A DNA stretch of 64,000 nt from Chryseobacterium balustinum (GTDB lineage Bacteria > Bacteroidota > Bacteroidia > Flavobacteriales > Weeksellaceae). The notes beneath the pieces were generated by a model. That model worked only from the letters and a program-made list of their open reading frames with translations, searched no databases and was not told where the DNA came from. Of this stretch, positions 36,641-40,444 are shown piece after piece. Each line of letters opens with the position of its first letter. The first letter of the stretch is position 1. The stretch is taken from assembly GCF_900168205.1 (NCBI RefSeq), contig NZ_FUZE01000006.1, forward strand, positions 62,001 through 126,000, read 5' to 3'. The translations under genes were made by a program, and so were the position numbers.

Positions 36641-37204
36641 ATGAAAAAAATAATTTTAACTGTACTTTTAGCAACTGTTCTTATCGGTTGTAAAAAAGAA
36701 GCAGAAAAAACGAACGAAGATATAAGCACAACAGATTCTACAGATATTCAGGATACTGCACAACCAGAAGCGGCAAATGTTTCTTTAAAATCTGTTTCTA
36801 CACAGCAAACTGCTGATTTTTTGCAAAAGAAAAATGATACTTTATATGTTACCAATTTTTTTGCAACATGGTGTGGACCATGTGTAAAGGAAATTCCCCA
36901 TTTTAAAAAGAAAATTGAAGAGCTGAAAGATCAGCCTGTAAAAATTACTTTTGTAAGTTTAGATCAAAAAGAGATTTGGAATACTGAAGTCCCACGTTTT
37001 ACAATGCAGCAAGGCATTCAGAATTATACTGTTCTTTTAGACGGGCAGCTTTTGGATGGAAACTTTTTCACAAGTAATTTTAAACAATGGACTGGAAACG
37101 CAATTCCGTTTACATTTATGAGAAGAGGCGACAAAACTGACGAAACATTGGGAATGATCAGTGAAGAGCAGCTCAACGAAAAAATTTCTTCTCTTTTGAA
37201 ATAA
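36641..37204 (+). CDS. TlpA-like thioredoxin lipoprotein
   Basis: This 187-residue envelope thiol-disulphide protein has a lipobox LIGC (Cys 17) and an acidic Thr/Ser linker to about residue 50. A thioredoxin fold follows with WCGPC at 77-81 and a cis-Pro region at NAIPFTFM. It probably reduces or exchanges disulphides at the periplasmic face. It lies 20 nt before the iron-type permease gene and may be co-transcribed. Confidence 0.9.
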   Translation: MKKIILTVLLATVLIGCKKEAEKTNEDISTTDSTDIQDTAQPEAANVSLKSVSTQQTADFLQKKNDTLYVTNFFATWCGPCVKEIPHFKKKIEELKDQPVKITFVSLDQKEIWNTEVPRFTMQQGIQNYTVLLDGQLLDGNFFTSNFKQWTGNAIPFTFMRRGDKTDETLGMISEEQLNEKISSLLK

Positions 37205-37224
37205 AAGTTAAGCAGTAATTCGAA

Positions 37225-38196
37225 ATGTCTAAAAAATTTAAGATCCTGTGTTTATTTTTATTGGTTGCAGTTATTTTGACAGCGATCATTAATCTGAATA
37301 CAGGATTTTTGACTTTAAATCTTCAGGATTTTTTCCAAGATTCTACCAATAGCCAGATTGCAGAAATTCGCGTAAACCGTGTTTTAGTAATGCTTTTGGC
37401 AGGAATTTCAATTCCAACTTCAGGTTTTCTGATGCAGGAATATTTTCAAAATCCTCTTGCGGGACCAGATATTTTAGGAATAACTTCTGTTGCAAGCTTA
37501 TCTGTTGCATTTTATATTTTCTTTTCGCATGATATTTTACTGCCTGAATTTCTTCAAAACAGCTTTCTAAGTTTATCTGCAATTATCGGAAGCTTAGTAT
37601 TGATGCTTGTTCTGCTGTCGATGTCAAATAAATTTCAGGATAAATCTTATCTTATTATTTTCGGATTTTTGGTATCGGCTTTGGCTGGAGCTATTGTCTC
37701 TCTTCTTCAGTTTTATGCAGAAAATCAAAGCTTAAAAAATTATATTTTATGGTCTTTCGGAGCCAATAATATGGTGTCGAGAAATCAGATTATCGTGCTG
37801 TCTATTTTAGTTTTTATAGGATTATTAATTTGTTTTAAAACAATAAAACCCTTAATCGGAAATTCTTTGGGAAGTTCATATGCTCAGAGTTTAGGAGTTA
37901 ATTTGAATCATCTGAAATTGATGATAATCATTGCTTCTTCTCTACTTTCGGCTTCGGTTACGGCATTTTTAGGGCCTATTTTATTCATCGGGATTATTGT
38001 TCCTCACTTTTGCAGATTGATTTATAATCCTGCAAAACTTTGGCAGCAATGGATTTTGAATATGTTTCTGGGAATGGTTATGATGTTATTTTTCTCTATT
38101 GTTGCAGAAAAAACGCAGATTCCTTTGAATGTTATCAGTTCAGTTTTTGGTATTCCTGTGATTTTAATGATGCTTTTGAAACAAAATAAAGTGTAA
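37225..38196 (+). CDS. FecCD-type iron-siderophore/cobalamin ABC permease
   Basis: This 323-residue protein has about nine or ten membrane helices with the FecCD/BtuC family blocks RVLVMLLAGISIPTSGFLMQ, NPLAGPDILGITS and FLGPILFIGIIVPHFCRLIY. The last contains the loop that meets the ATPase. It imports siderophore-iron or cobalamin from the periplasm. No binding-protein gene is nearby. The ATPase gene comes 709 bp later, after a repeat-flanked GxxExxY gene. Confidence 0.92.
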   Translation: MSKKFKILCLFLLVAVILTAIINLNTGFLTLNLQDFFQDSTNSQIAEIRVNRVLVMLLAGISIPTSGFLMQEYFQNPLAGPDILGITSVASLSVAFYIFFSHDILLPEFLQNSFLSLSAIIGSLVLMLVLLSMSNKFQDKSYLIIFGFLVSALAGAIVSLLQFYAENQSLKNYILWSFGANNMVSRNQIIVLSILVFIGLLICFKTIKPLIGNSLGSSYAQSLGVNLNHLKLMIIIASSLLSASVTAFLGPILFIGIIVPHFCRLIYNPAKLWQQWILNMFLGMVMMLFFSIVAEKTQIPLNVISSVFGIPVILMMLLKQNKV

Positions 38197-38199
38197 TTG

Positions 38200-38393
38200 T
38201 TGGTATTTCGCAAAGGCGCAAAGTTTTTCATAAAAATAATGTTTTAAGGCGCAAGGATTTTATCTTTGATAAAATTTAAGATTGTAAAATATAAGTAAAA
38301 AAATAATTTCAATACTGGTTGAAAATCTTTGATTTTCTTGCGCCTTAGAAACAGCATAAAAATTAAGAAAATTGCGCCTTTGCGAAATACCAA
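38200..38393. repeat. 194-bp palindromic element with nested inverted arms
   Basis: The outer arms are a perfect 22-bp inverted repeat (38200-38221 with 38372-38393) containing CGCAAAGGCGCAA. Inner arms at about 38240-38256 and 38337-38353 (TGTTTTAAGGCGCAAG and its near-complement) are nearly perfect too. The centre is AT-rich and non-coding. It resembles a miniature palindromic mobile repeat of the CGCAAAG family, related to 14515-14621. Confidence 0.75.
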
Positions 38394-38430
38394 CATTAAA
38401 CACAAACGATAAAATAAAAAGCACAATACA

Positions 38431-38808
38431 ATGACAGAAAATGAATTATCAAAAATTGTTTTTGAAACAGGATTAAAAATCCATAAAAAACTTGGAGCAG
38501 GACTGTTTGAACATGTATATGAAGAATGTCTTTTTTATGAATTAACAAAAGCAGGATTGGCTGTTGAAAAACAAAAACTACTTCCAATTATTTATGAAGA
38601 ATTAAAAATTGAAAACGCTTTCAGATTAGATATGATTATTGAAAATAAATTAATTTTAGAAATAAAAACTGTTGAGTATATTAATTCAATTCATAAAGCT
38701 CAACTTCTAACGTATTTAAAAATGACAAATTGCAAATTAGGACTATTATTAAATTTTCAATCTGATGTTTTCAAAAATGGAGTAACAAGAATTGTAAACT
38801 TTTTATAA
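38431..38808 (+). CDS. GxxExxY protein (PD-(D/E)XK nuclease-like)
   Basis: The 125-residue protein has the naming motif GLFEHVY at residues 24-30 and the fold's catalytic-like residues in FRLDMIIENKLILEIKTVE (D then ExK, about 67-83), followed by QLLTYLKMTNCKLGLLLNF. The group is common in Bacteroidota and lacks a proven function. It sits between a permease gene and its ATPase gene and is bracketed by diverged copies of one repeat (38337-38394 and 38842-38902), so it looks inserted. Confidence 0.9.
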   Translation: MTENELSKIVFETGLKIHKKLGAGLFEHVYEECLFYELTKAGLAVEKQKLLPIIYEELKIENAFRLDMIIENKLILEIKTVEYINSIHKAQLLTYLKMTNCKLGLLLNFQSDVFKNGVTRIVNFL

Positions 38809-38841
38809 ATAAAGCTAACAAAAATTTGACAAAGTCAAATT

Positions 38842-38902
38842 CTTTGCGCCTTAAAACACTATTTTTGTAAAAGAAACTTCGAGTCTTTTGCGATAAACCA
38901 AC
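38842..38902. repeat. Second copy of the CGCAAAG repeat arm
   Basis: This 61-bp segment parallels the right arm at 38337-38394: TTTGCGCCTTAAAACA corresponds to TTGCGCCTTAGAAACA, and TTTTGCGATAAACCAAC to CTTTGCGAAATACCAAC. The two copies are in direct orientation on either side of the GxxExxY gene. Confidence 0.65.
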
Positions 38903-38904
38903 AA

Positions 38905-39828
38905 ATGCACCTACAAATAAAAAAAGCCAATATCGGTTACGATAAAACCTTAATTTCAAATGCCAACGCATCTTTGAATTTAGGAGACGTTTGCTTGCTG
39001 ATTGGAAATAACGGTGTAGGAAAAACTACTTTAATTAAATCTATTCTCCATCAAAATTCTTTATTAAACGGAGAAATTTTAATTAATAATAAAAATATAA
39101 AGTATTTATCGGTAAAAGAAATTGCTGAAAATATTGCCATTGTCTTTTCTAAAGCAATCATTCCACAAAATTATACGGTTGAAGATTTAATTTCTTTGGG
39201 AAAATACATTTATTATCCTTTTTATTTTGAGCTTAAAAAAGAAGACCGGGAAGAAGTTTCAAATATTATTTTAGAGTTAGATTTAGAGCAATACAAAAAT
39301 ACTCCTTTAAAAAATCTATCTGATGGAAATCTGCAAAAAGCATTTATTGGACGTGCATTAACGCAGAACTCTCCTATTATTATTCTCGATGAACCCACAA
39401 CTCATTTGGATGAAAAAAATAAAATCATCATTCTAAAAACACTTCGAAAACTTGCCAAAGAACAAAATAAACTGATTTTGTTTTCTTCACACGACTGGCG
39501 TTTGGCAAAAGAATTTGCCGACAAGATTTGGTATGTTAAGAACCAAGAACTGTTTTCTGGAATTGTAGAAGATGTTTTACTGAATCATAATGAATTAACC
39601 AATGCATCACTATTCCAGGTGAATGAAAATTTTGTGGCTCCTTCTATTATTTCGCCCGAAATTCAAAAAGAGATGCTGTATTCTTTACTGCAAAAAAACT
39701 TTCAAAAAGACCTTTCTTTATTTCAATTTAAATATAACAATACATTTTGGGAGATTTCATACAAAAATGAAATACACAAATGCGAATCCTTTGAAGAAAT
39801 AGTTAATTTAATCTCAAAGCTTTACTAA
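38905..39828 (+). CDS. Iron/cobalamin-type ABC transporter ATPase
   Basis: This 307-residue ATPase partners the FecCD-type permease. Walker A is GNNGVGKTT (about 34-42). The signature is LSDGN, a variant of LSGGQ (about 137-141), and Walker B is PIIILDEPTTHLDE (about 155-168), followed by SSHD with the switch His. A C-terminal extension of about 80 residues has no recognised domain. The gene should be co-transcribed with the permease, but the inserted GxxExxY cassette lies between them. Confidence 0.9.
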   Translation: MHLQIKKANIGYDKTLISNANASLNLGDVCLLIGNNGVGKTTLIKSILHQNSLLNGEILINNKNIKYLSVKEIAENIAIVFSKAIIPQNYTVEDLISLGKYIYYPFYFELKKEDREEVSNIILELDLEQYKNTPLKNLSDGNLQKAFIGRALTQNSPIIILDEPTTHLDEKNKIIILKTLRKLAKEQNKLILFSSHDWRLAKEFADKIWYVKNQELFSGIVEDVLLNHNELTNASLFQVNENFVAPSIISPEIQKEMLYSLLQKNFQKDLSLFQFKYNNTFWEISYKNEIHKCESFEEIVNLISKLY

Positions 39829-39854
39829 TACGCTAATTTAATTATTTATTCCAC

Positions 39855-39874
39855 ATACTATGCATGCATAGTAT
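39855..39874. promoter_or_regulatory. Distal palindromic operator before the fad regulator
   Basis: ATACTATGCATGCATAGTAT is a perfect 20-bp palindrome. A second copy with one mismatch lies 83 bp downstream at 39938-39957. Both are probably bound by the MarR-type protein encoded next. Confidence 0.7.
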
Positions 39875-39937
39875 TATGCTTATCATACAATTTAACGTAC
39901 TGAAATTCAGTTAATTAATAAATTTTACTATTAATTA

Positions 39938-39969
39938 ATACTATGCATGCATAATATTTGCTACATTTG
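39938..39969 (+). promoter_or_regulatory. Proximal operator and promoter of the marR-fad operon
   Basis: The second copy of the 20-bp palindrome (39938-39957, one mismatch) overlaps the spot where a -33 element would lie. TACATTTG at 39962-39969 matches TAnnTTTG. The marR ATG follows at 39992. A bound repressor would cover the promoter, and the paired sites could allow looping or cooperative binding. Confidence 0.65.
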
Positions 39970-39991
39970 ATAAAACCGATAAGCAAAAAAT

Positions 39992-40444
39992 ATGATGGAT
40001 AACAATAAAGAGAAAACAGAAAATGTAGACCTCATTCTGAAACAGACCTGGTTGGCTGTTTCTAAAATGTATACTGAGCTTGCACAGGAACACGATTCTA
40101 CCGCAGTACAAGCCTTAACTTTATTAAAAATTGACCCAAAAGAAGGTACAAGAAGTACCAATTTAGGACCTAAAATGGCCATTGAGCCAACTTCCCTCAC
40201 AAGGATTATTAAACTCCTTGAAGACAACGGATACATCTACAAAGAAAAGACGACTACCGATAAAAGAGAAGTTATCATTAAGCTTACCGATAAAGGATTG
40301 AGCTCAAGAAATATGTCTAAAGAAGTGGTGGTGAATTTCAACAAAAAAGTAATGGAAAAAATTGCTCCCGATAAGTTGGATACCTTCAAAGAAGTAATGA
40401 GTGAAATCATGAAAATTGCTGCCGACTTGAATAATAGAAAATAA
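39992..40444 (+). CDS. MarR-family regulator of beta-oxidation
   Basis: This 150-residue MarR protein has helix-turn-helix and wing segments in RSTNLGPKMAIEPTSLTRII and LLEDNGYIYKEKTTTDKREV (about 52-90), with flanking dimerisation helices. It starts at either of two adjacent ATG codons (39992 or 39995). It precedes the HCDH-ECH gene by 68 nt, and twin palindromes lie in its promoter. An acyl-CoA-responsive repressor of fatty-acid breakdown is the natural reading, by analogy with other fad-linked regulators. Confidence 0.88.
   Translation: MMDNNKEKTENVDLILKQTWLAVSKMYTELAQEHDSTAVQALTLLKIDPKEGTRSTNLGPKMAIEPTSLTRIIKLLEDNGYIYKEKTTTDKREVIIKLTDKGLSSRNMSKEVVVNFNKKVMEKIAPDKLDTFKEVMSEIMKIAADLNNRK

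Follow-up and report, generated by a model that had tools for sequence, protein, structure and literature searches.

Among described systems, REPIN-RAYT pairs come closest to the arrangement reported here, and the passages of PMC3116915 that treat them describe intergenic inverted repeat doublets with predicted hairpins, repeat clusters that adjoin the enzyme gene and match that enzyme in flavour, and tandem clusters that include flanking DNA alongside many gene-less units, all of which have their likeness around the GxxExxY genes considered below. The GxxExxY units differ from REPIN-RAYT in that their enzyme is a predicted PD-(D/E)XK nuclease and not a REP-associated tyrosine transposase, that units of 8-10 nt are arrayed to form their arms, that genomes usually carry several copies of the gene and that no excision intermediates were seen for them here. 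The S23 intervening sequences of 23S rRNA (four-helix bundle, PF05635) likewise appear, in the relevant portions of PMC4990558, as very small units that comprise a single small ORF with short tandem repeats next to it (S23 elements are also described in part of PMC5524665), whereas GxxExxY units lie between protein-coding genes and not in 23S rRNA, encode an unrelated protein and have a period of about 9-10 where that of S23 is 7. MITEs and insertion sequences share terminal inverted repeats and a gene-less internal-deletion derivative with the GxxExxY unit, which, however, has no transposase or recombinase domain and no established target-site duplication. Finally, the GxxExxY protein is predicted to share its fold and its active-site residues (D, E-x-K, QxxxY) with Cas4/RecB-family nucleases and Hjc, but it is a minimal single domain of 125 aa and shows by eye no iron-sulphur cysteine set, the window gene lying outside any CRISPR or repair operon.

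In the open-access papers searched (subscription papers mostly fall outside this scope), no account of a link between the gene and repeats was found, nor any mention of TIGR04256 or IPR026350, and the repeat strings themselves appeared nowhere beyond one fish eDNA paper (PMC8438044). A GxxExxY-domain gene beside a reverse transcriptase, where CRISPRone called cas4, is reported in a section of PMC8934634; the term GxxExxY also occurs in PMC12085832, PF13366 or PDDEXK_3 is named in PMC9756366, and PMC5771137 was the one paper found on the topic of interspersed palindromic repeats in Bacteroidetes.

A 708-bp unit and its predicted nuclease

The window, i.e. the whole stretch of 64,000 nucleotides of Chryseobacterium balustinum DNA that was analysed, contains a unit of left palindrome, GxxExxY gene and right arm (38197-38904, + strand, 708 bp) that takes up all the space, from stop codon to start codon, between a FecCD-family permease gene (37225-38196, +) and an ABC ATPase gene (38905-39828, +). 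A terminal inverted repeat, TTGTTGGTATTTCGCAAAG, begins at 38197 directly after the permease stop TAA (38194-38196), and its mirrored end, CTTTTGCGATAAACCAACAA, runs up to 38904, directly before the ATPase ATG (38905); the opening sequence of the unit is TTGTTGGTATTTCGCAAAGGCGCAAAG and CTTTTGCGATAAACCAACAA is its closing sequence. The left part is a nested, strandless palindrome of 198 nt (38198-38395), in which the left arm and its inverted partner are predicted to form an outer stem of 24 contiguous pairs, with a DNA folding energy of -52 kcal/mol against -19.3 +/- 3.2 for shuffled sequences (n=200; z -10.3; 0/200 as good). Its left outer arm holds two head-to-tail CGCAAAG units of period 8 (38209-38223, +), an inner palindrome spans 38242-38350 (arms 38242-38255 and 38337-38350, 93% complementary), and its right arm (38349-38395) is inverted to 38198-38244 (47 nt at 79%). 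The gene itself (38431-38808, +; 125 aa; PF13366 and TIGR04256 profiles) is followed by the right arm of the unit (38821-38904), which repeats the right arm of the palindrome in direct orientation, is inverted to its left arm (52 nt at 81%) and carries the terminus CTTTTGCGATAAACCAACAA. The initial annotation, which had described a nested palindrome, a gene and a direct right-arm copy separating permease and ATPase, is thus confirmed at this place, the palindrome measuring 198 nt.

At the same junction, locus L150 has a plain form consisting of left arm, gene and right arm (613 bp), the window and other genomes have a complete palindrome 5' of the gene, and loci L162 and L164 have several arms or palindromes in series, the first palindrome of L164 being trailed by a short gene-start-like stretch (ATGATAGAAAAT). 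Given this plain form, the serial palindromes and the gene-start remnant, the extra palindrome of the window unit looks like the product of a local duplication. Palindromes of the window family also occur at other places in its own genome, where a 14-base arm pattern (<=1 mismatch) gave 28 matches, not all of them within such palindromes, versus 8 for the reversed pattern. Two CGCAAAG-type palindromes also stand in series (L001, 1068-1425) 5' of a second GxxExxY gene of this genome (C24), and the gene following it begins immediately after.

The window protein is full-length and scored 132.1 bits against PF13366 (cut-off 22) and 135.7 bits against TIGR04256 (cut-off 35). PF13366 is its sole Pfam match, transposase or recombinase domains being absent, and we know of no transposase-like activity in the GxxExxY family. 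Residues H18, GxGxxExxY, R65, D67, E77, K79, Q91 and Y95 are fully or almost fully conserved in 76 relatives, as was also read in a 12-sequence alignment; within the active-site set, D67 and E77 are invariant and K79, Q91 and Y95 reach >=90% (76 sequences, window protein as reference). The predicted nuclease features are H18, GxGxxExxY, D67, E77-x-K79 and Q91xxxY95, where D, E-x-K and QxxxY are active-site motifs of PD-(D/E)XK nucleases. An alignment-based AlphaFold2 model (pLDDT 96.6, pTM 0.88; the single-sequence model was poor, pLDDT 54) gave as best PDB match SSO0001 (4ic1; Foldseek E 9.4e-4, VIA Z 9.6), a Cas4, followed by the restriction-fold protein 3ijm (Z 8.6) and the Hjc resolvases (best Z 7.2, 1gef), with 2wiw, on the Holliday-junction resolvase side, at Foldseek E 3.3e-3; rows below Z 8 may reflect merely a common arrangement, and structural families beyond the compared PDB set may also fit. 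As Foldseek returned a single match at E <= 0.001, the fold call leans equally on the curated family, whose name PDDEXK_3 is consistent with the structural matches, and on the active-site pattern, and the protein is predicted to be a PD-(D/E)XK nuclease of the RecB/Cas4 type, like Cas4 and Hjc.

The median dN/dS of 23 full copies at the window site was 0.07 (129 pairs with dS 0.05-1.5; median dS 1.06), so the GxxExxY protein is maintained by purifying selection. The predicted Cas4/Hjc-like fold, the intact active-site residues and this selection are compatible with the earlier suggestion that the protein may act on the repeat. The same selection, together with persistence at fixed sites and a fold near Holliday-junction resolvases (1gef, 2wiw), would also suit a host function, in which the cell keeps a resolvase of hairpins or cruciforms, or a repeat-binding regulator or guard, with the dispersed palindromes as its working sites and the gene-side arms as autoregulatory elements. 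Yet the family is patchy (PF13366 in 60/118 Bacteroidota genomes; 0 to 9 copies per Chryseobacterium genome), and in-frame stops in 5/80 GxxExxY copies and partial copies in 5/70 genomes read at the window junction look more selfish than core, which makes a host function improbable in our estimation.

The GxxExxY domain was also found within an 883-codon open frame (G102:C9:91047, G130:C1:72351 and G114:C22:338274, all of one genus code), indicating a fusion or domesticated form. In single queries, the family was carried by 0/50,697 phage records and by 8/72,556 plasmid records, all of the latter typed non-mobilizable.

Inward repeat arrays across phyla

The cross-phylum set comprised the best 80 of 572 confirmed relatives, a non-random sample with many MAGs and with contigs of 30 to 68% GC, whose arms consist of head-to-tail CRCNRAG units. 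For the array test, three loci with <150 bp of flank were dropped, leaving 77, controls were restricted to ORFs more than 600 bp away from the gene, and an array was defined as two CRCNRAK units <=4 nt apart in the 150 bp adjoining the gene, directed inward on both sides. Such two-sided inward arrays were present at 32/77 loci of this best-80 set and 0/335 control ORFs (Fisher 9e-27), and absent in this strict form from 45/77; one-sided inward arrays were found upstream at 47/77 and downstream at 44/77 loci (controls 15/335 and 11/335), and two-sided outward arrays at 10/77 (controls 1/335). None of the 335 controls thus represents an array-bracketed gene other than GxxExxY, and the association of gene and repeat is almost certainly real and general. 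Mere coincidence in an insertion hot spot, where repeats would collect in any intergenic gap and the gene would be there by chance, is already contradicted by the excess of inward over outward arrays and by the near-empty controls, and its probability is negligible even though the permease-ATPase and tpiA junctions do gather several unrelated inserts.

In the best-80 set, the two-sided inverted-repeat score had a median of 19 versus 10 for 475 control ORFs and exceeded the control 95th percentile in 56/77 and the 99th in 20/77; for this score the gene end was misplaced in the five in-frame-stop loci and controls were unoriented with neighbours kept, which the array test corrects. Arms matched each other better within a unit than between units (median 22 vs 11; 0/5000 permutations as good; n=32 of the best-80 set); taken over all 77 loci, the own partner arm was the best match in just 30%. 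Protein distance was correlated with array distance (Mantel r 0.17, p<0.0005; 0.0005 partial on GC; 55/72 loci), so array type tracks the protein to a modest degree. Self-match of the cross-phylum flanks peaked at lags of 9-10 nt (0.49 and 0.48 versus 0.42 shuffled). In 28 Bacteroidota loci, read by eye and without controls, similar arrays stood beside many of the genes. Two near-identical GxxExxY genes with similar adjoining repeats lie 740 bp apart in L261 (reverse-strand offsets 1488-1866 and 2228-2606), an arrangement resembling tandem duplication of the whole unit. Locus L377 has one ORF between two whole palindromes and is a single case.

Mismatches between arms comprised 83 G.T versus 79 A.C changes at 44 cross-phylum loci and 41 versus 48 at 25 Chryseobacterium loci, and this lack of a G.U excess argues against constraint at the RNA level. 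It also weighs against an RNA-level element like the S23 intervening sequences, in which the palindrome would be the hairpin of a processed transcript, with mobility or regulation through RNA. That explanation can point to the same ORF-within-hairpin architecture, to the inverted short repeats of S23 genes in this genus and to the tandem heptamers 5' of the Coxiella S23 ORF described in a passage of PMC4990558; with arm mismatches devoid of extra G.U-compatible changes and no Rfam match at the gathering threshold in 37000-40000, however, we regard it as very improbable.

S23 genes (PF05635) occur in 77/78 Chryseobacterium genomes, with up to 18 in each. The best 30 of the listed S23 genes (L171-L200; 29 with an ORF) have on both flanks short inverted repeats with a period of 7, e.g. 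TAGGTTGCAGGT; across the 29 loci, flank self-match at lag 7 was 0.64, compared with 0.42 after shuffling, and S23 genes with such repeats are possibly a parallel class. That they carry repeats of the window kind is not supported, given period 7 in the 29 loci and 0/40 array-head loci with an S23 match.

A strict three-unit array head, sought in 118 Bacteroidota genomes, was found 71 times in 23 of them, versus once for the reversed pattern. PF13366 was present in 22/23 genomes with heads, leaving one head-bearing genome without it, and in 38/95 without heads (Fisher 4.8e-7, a value that ignores descent). At least 14/71 heads lay <=600 bp from a GxxExxY gene (gene positions entered by hand), and at least 42/71 had no GxxExxY match nearby (36/40 regions); these 40 regions were chosen mostly away from known GxxExxY genes, and the 4/40 with a gene are no estimate of a rate. 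Among the regions read as sequence, four are short hairpins, and the extragenic position of the repeats is that of the copies read, without a genome-wide count. The initial annotation had held that repeats occurring equally without the gene would speak against the link: many heads are indeed gene-less, but they are concentrated in gene-bearing genomes, and one gene-less copy (L404, below) is a deletion derivative.

Sites and repeat types in Chryseobacterium

PF13366 occurs in 73/78 genomes of the genus (0 to 9 copies each, three in the window's own genome). From about 150 listed matches, 80 were hand-chosen down the list and the window was added; four of these 81 lacked a single ORF, leaving 77 loci, whose neighbouring genes form 16 combinations. 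The control 95th percentile (1064 other ORFs) was exceeded at 29/77 loci by inverted repeats spanning the gene and at 24/77 by upstream palindromes, while downstream palindromes showed no enrichment (6/77). In the largest class (28/77 loci), the upstream palindrome exceeded the control 90th percentile in 19, and the downstream gene abuts or overlaps the GxxExxY gene in 28/28, which accounts for the lack of a downstream arm. Self-match of the flanks peaked at lag 9 (0.50 versus 0.46 in controls), more weakly than across phyla. Most Chryseobacterium copies look inherited in place.

Repeat type differs by subfamily, with CGCAAAG at the window site, CGCAGATTTxGCAGAT in subfamily alpha, CACAGATT in another and CACAAAT/CACAAAG in a third. 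Subfamily alpha, present as a single copy in each of 17/78 genomes at the E-value used, occupies different sites (tpiA or other genes), yet its CGCAGAT-type ends are alike; the copies at tpiA form one similarity group and those elsewhere another, so transfer between these sites would be old or rare.

A search for empty sites in relatives, as suggested initially, was made at the tpiA junction, which is empty, filled, palindrome-only or decayed according to the Chryseobacterium species. In 22 genomes (16/17 alpha carriers and 6 others), this junction had the gene in nine, was tight in two, held a solo alpha palindrome in two and a remnant in one; the rest comprised two with a palindrome of another family, five in which another gene lies upstream and the 330 bases read contain no array of this kind, and one (G062) with something else. 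In the two tight genomes (G008, G071), the gap is 15-16 bp with otherwise nothing in it, and the alpha gene is located elsewhere. The other-family palindrome upstream of tpiA (L408 and L409, in G018 and the window's own genome; GTTCGCAAAGGC..TCAGC) resembles the arms around the C54 GxxExxY gene of the own genome. In G064, a gene-less palindrome (L404) lies beside the gene with eight initial codons between its arms, identical to those of the neighbouring gene, and it is an internal-deletion derivative of the adjacent unit.

The window junction was read in 70/77 genomes carrying the ATPase, with 25 full genes, 5 partial ones and 40 without the gene, three of the 40 not being measurable from the permease side and several carrying other repeats or another small ORF. 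Filled and empty junctions, at tpiA as at the window site, differ by more than the unit; neither a target-site duplication nor a clean pre-insertion site could be defined there, and no insertion event was seen among the compared junctions. Since no target duplication is definable, gain and loss are indistinguishable at single sites. As a hot spot, the permease-ATPase junction is occupied in other species by CGCAGATT repeats, by a repeat of the form GTCATTCCGTAGGAATCT...AGCATGAC or by a small ORF that, judged by eye, resembles a membrane protein (L141-L170, L201-L240). Seven window-type repeat matches, all on the same strand and evenly spaced at ~342 bp, form a tandem array at G067:C16:53845-55909.

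Window-type repeats outside the junction had a median of 9 in the 25 genomes with the full gene and of 1 in the 40 without it (p 8e-5, phylogeny ignored); six or more were nevertheless counted in 10/40 genomes without a window-type gene at its site, and none elsewhere in 3/25 with the full gene. For alpha-type repeats, the association with the alpha gene had p 0.004, which rose to 0.27 once up to three own copies were subtracted, and there was a weak one with the window-type gene too (p 0.01), phylogeny again being ignored. These mixed results keep alive a passenger reading, in which another enzyme moves the palindromes, as a MITE- or REPIN-like family in its own right, and GxxExxY genes ride inside. 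Common gene-less copies (at least 42/71 heads) and the head-bearing genome without the gene agree with it as well. The bracketing of none of the 335 other ORFs on the contigs of the best-80 set means, however, that the cargo would nearly always have to be this gene, in contigs of 30 to 68% GC, and the tracking of protein by array and the purifying selection on the gene also tell against passengers, so we consider this reading unlikely.

A candidate mechanism

The earlier suggestion that the gene moves with the repeat is supported by the inward arrays across phyla, by arm types that follow the subfamily at different sites and by a site that is empty, filled or palindrome-only in congeners, and gene and arms together are likely to be one co-moving unit. 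On balance we favour the fuller statement, with some reserve, that this is a palindromic mobile unit encoding a nuclease that acts on the repeat ends of the unit itself, comparable to REPIN-RAYT with an unrelated enzyme; that the nuclease drives the movement is what we infer.

Under this preferred reading, the gene and its mirrored arms would together make up one mobile unit of small size, some 0.45-0.8 kb in the copies read. Its arms are inverted arrays of short units roughly one helical turn apart, of the form CRCNRAG in most phyla and CGCAAAG, CGCAGAT, CACAGAT or CACAAAT in Chryseobacterium. The GxxExxY protein would bind arrays of its own type, recognise the palindrome when extruded as a hairpin or cruciform, and nick or cut it, thereby enabling either the unit or, in trans, a palindrome lacking the gene to spread to other intergenic sites by copying or relocation. 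Enzymes of the Hjc and Cas4 types act on branched or frayed DNA, and TnsA, a restriction-fold enzyme in Tn7 transposition, illustrates that such a fold can serve transposition. The copy in the window would be an old resident of the permease-ATPase junction, with an extra palindrome from local duplication. A bolder generalisation, offered tentatively and with rather less confidence, is that minimal mobile elements across phyla encode, as their only protein, a 125-aa Cas4/Hjc-like nuclease which recognises inverted CRCNRAG arrays and moves its own unit and, in trans, gene-less hairpins, the dispersed repeats of the CACAGAG, CACGAAG and CGCAAAG types in bacterial genomes being their non-autonomous offspring and S23, with repeats of period 7, a second class in parallel.

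Since relatives of the gene in many bacterial phyla often have a repeat frame of this kind, very small mobile DNA units may form a class that has drawn little notice. The unit provides a concrete substrate hypothesis for GxxExxY genes, which are common and yet, to our knowledge, have no assigned function so far, and it gives the dispersed repeats a candidate enzyme. If true, a restriction-fold nuclease would fill in this family the role that tyrosine transposases have for REPINs.
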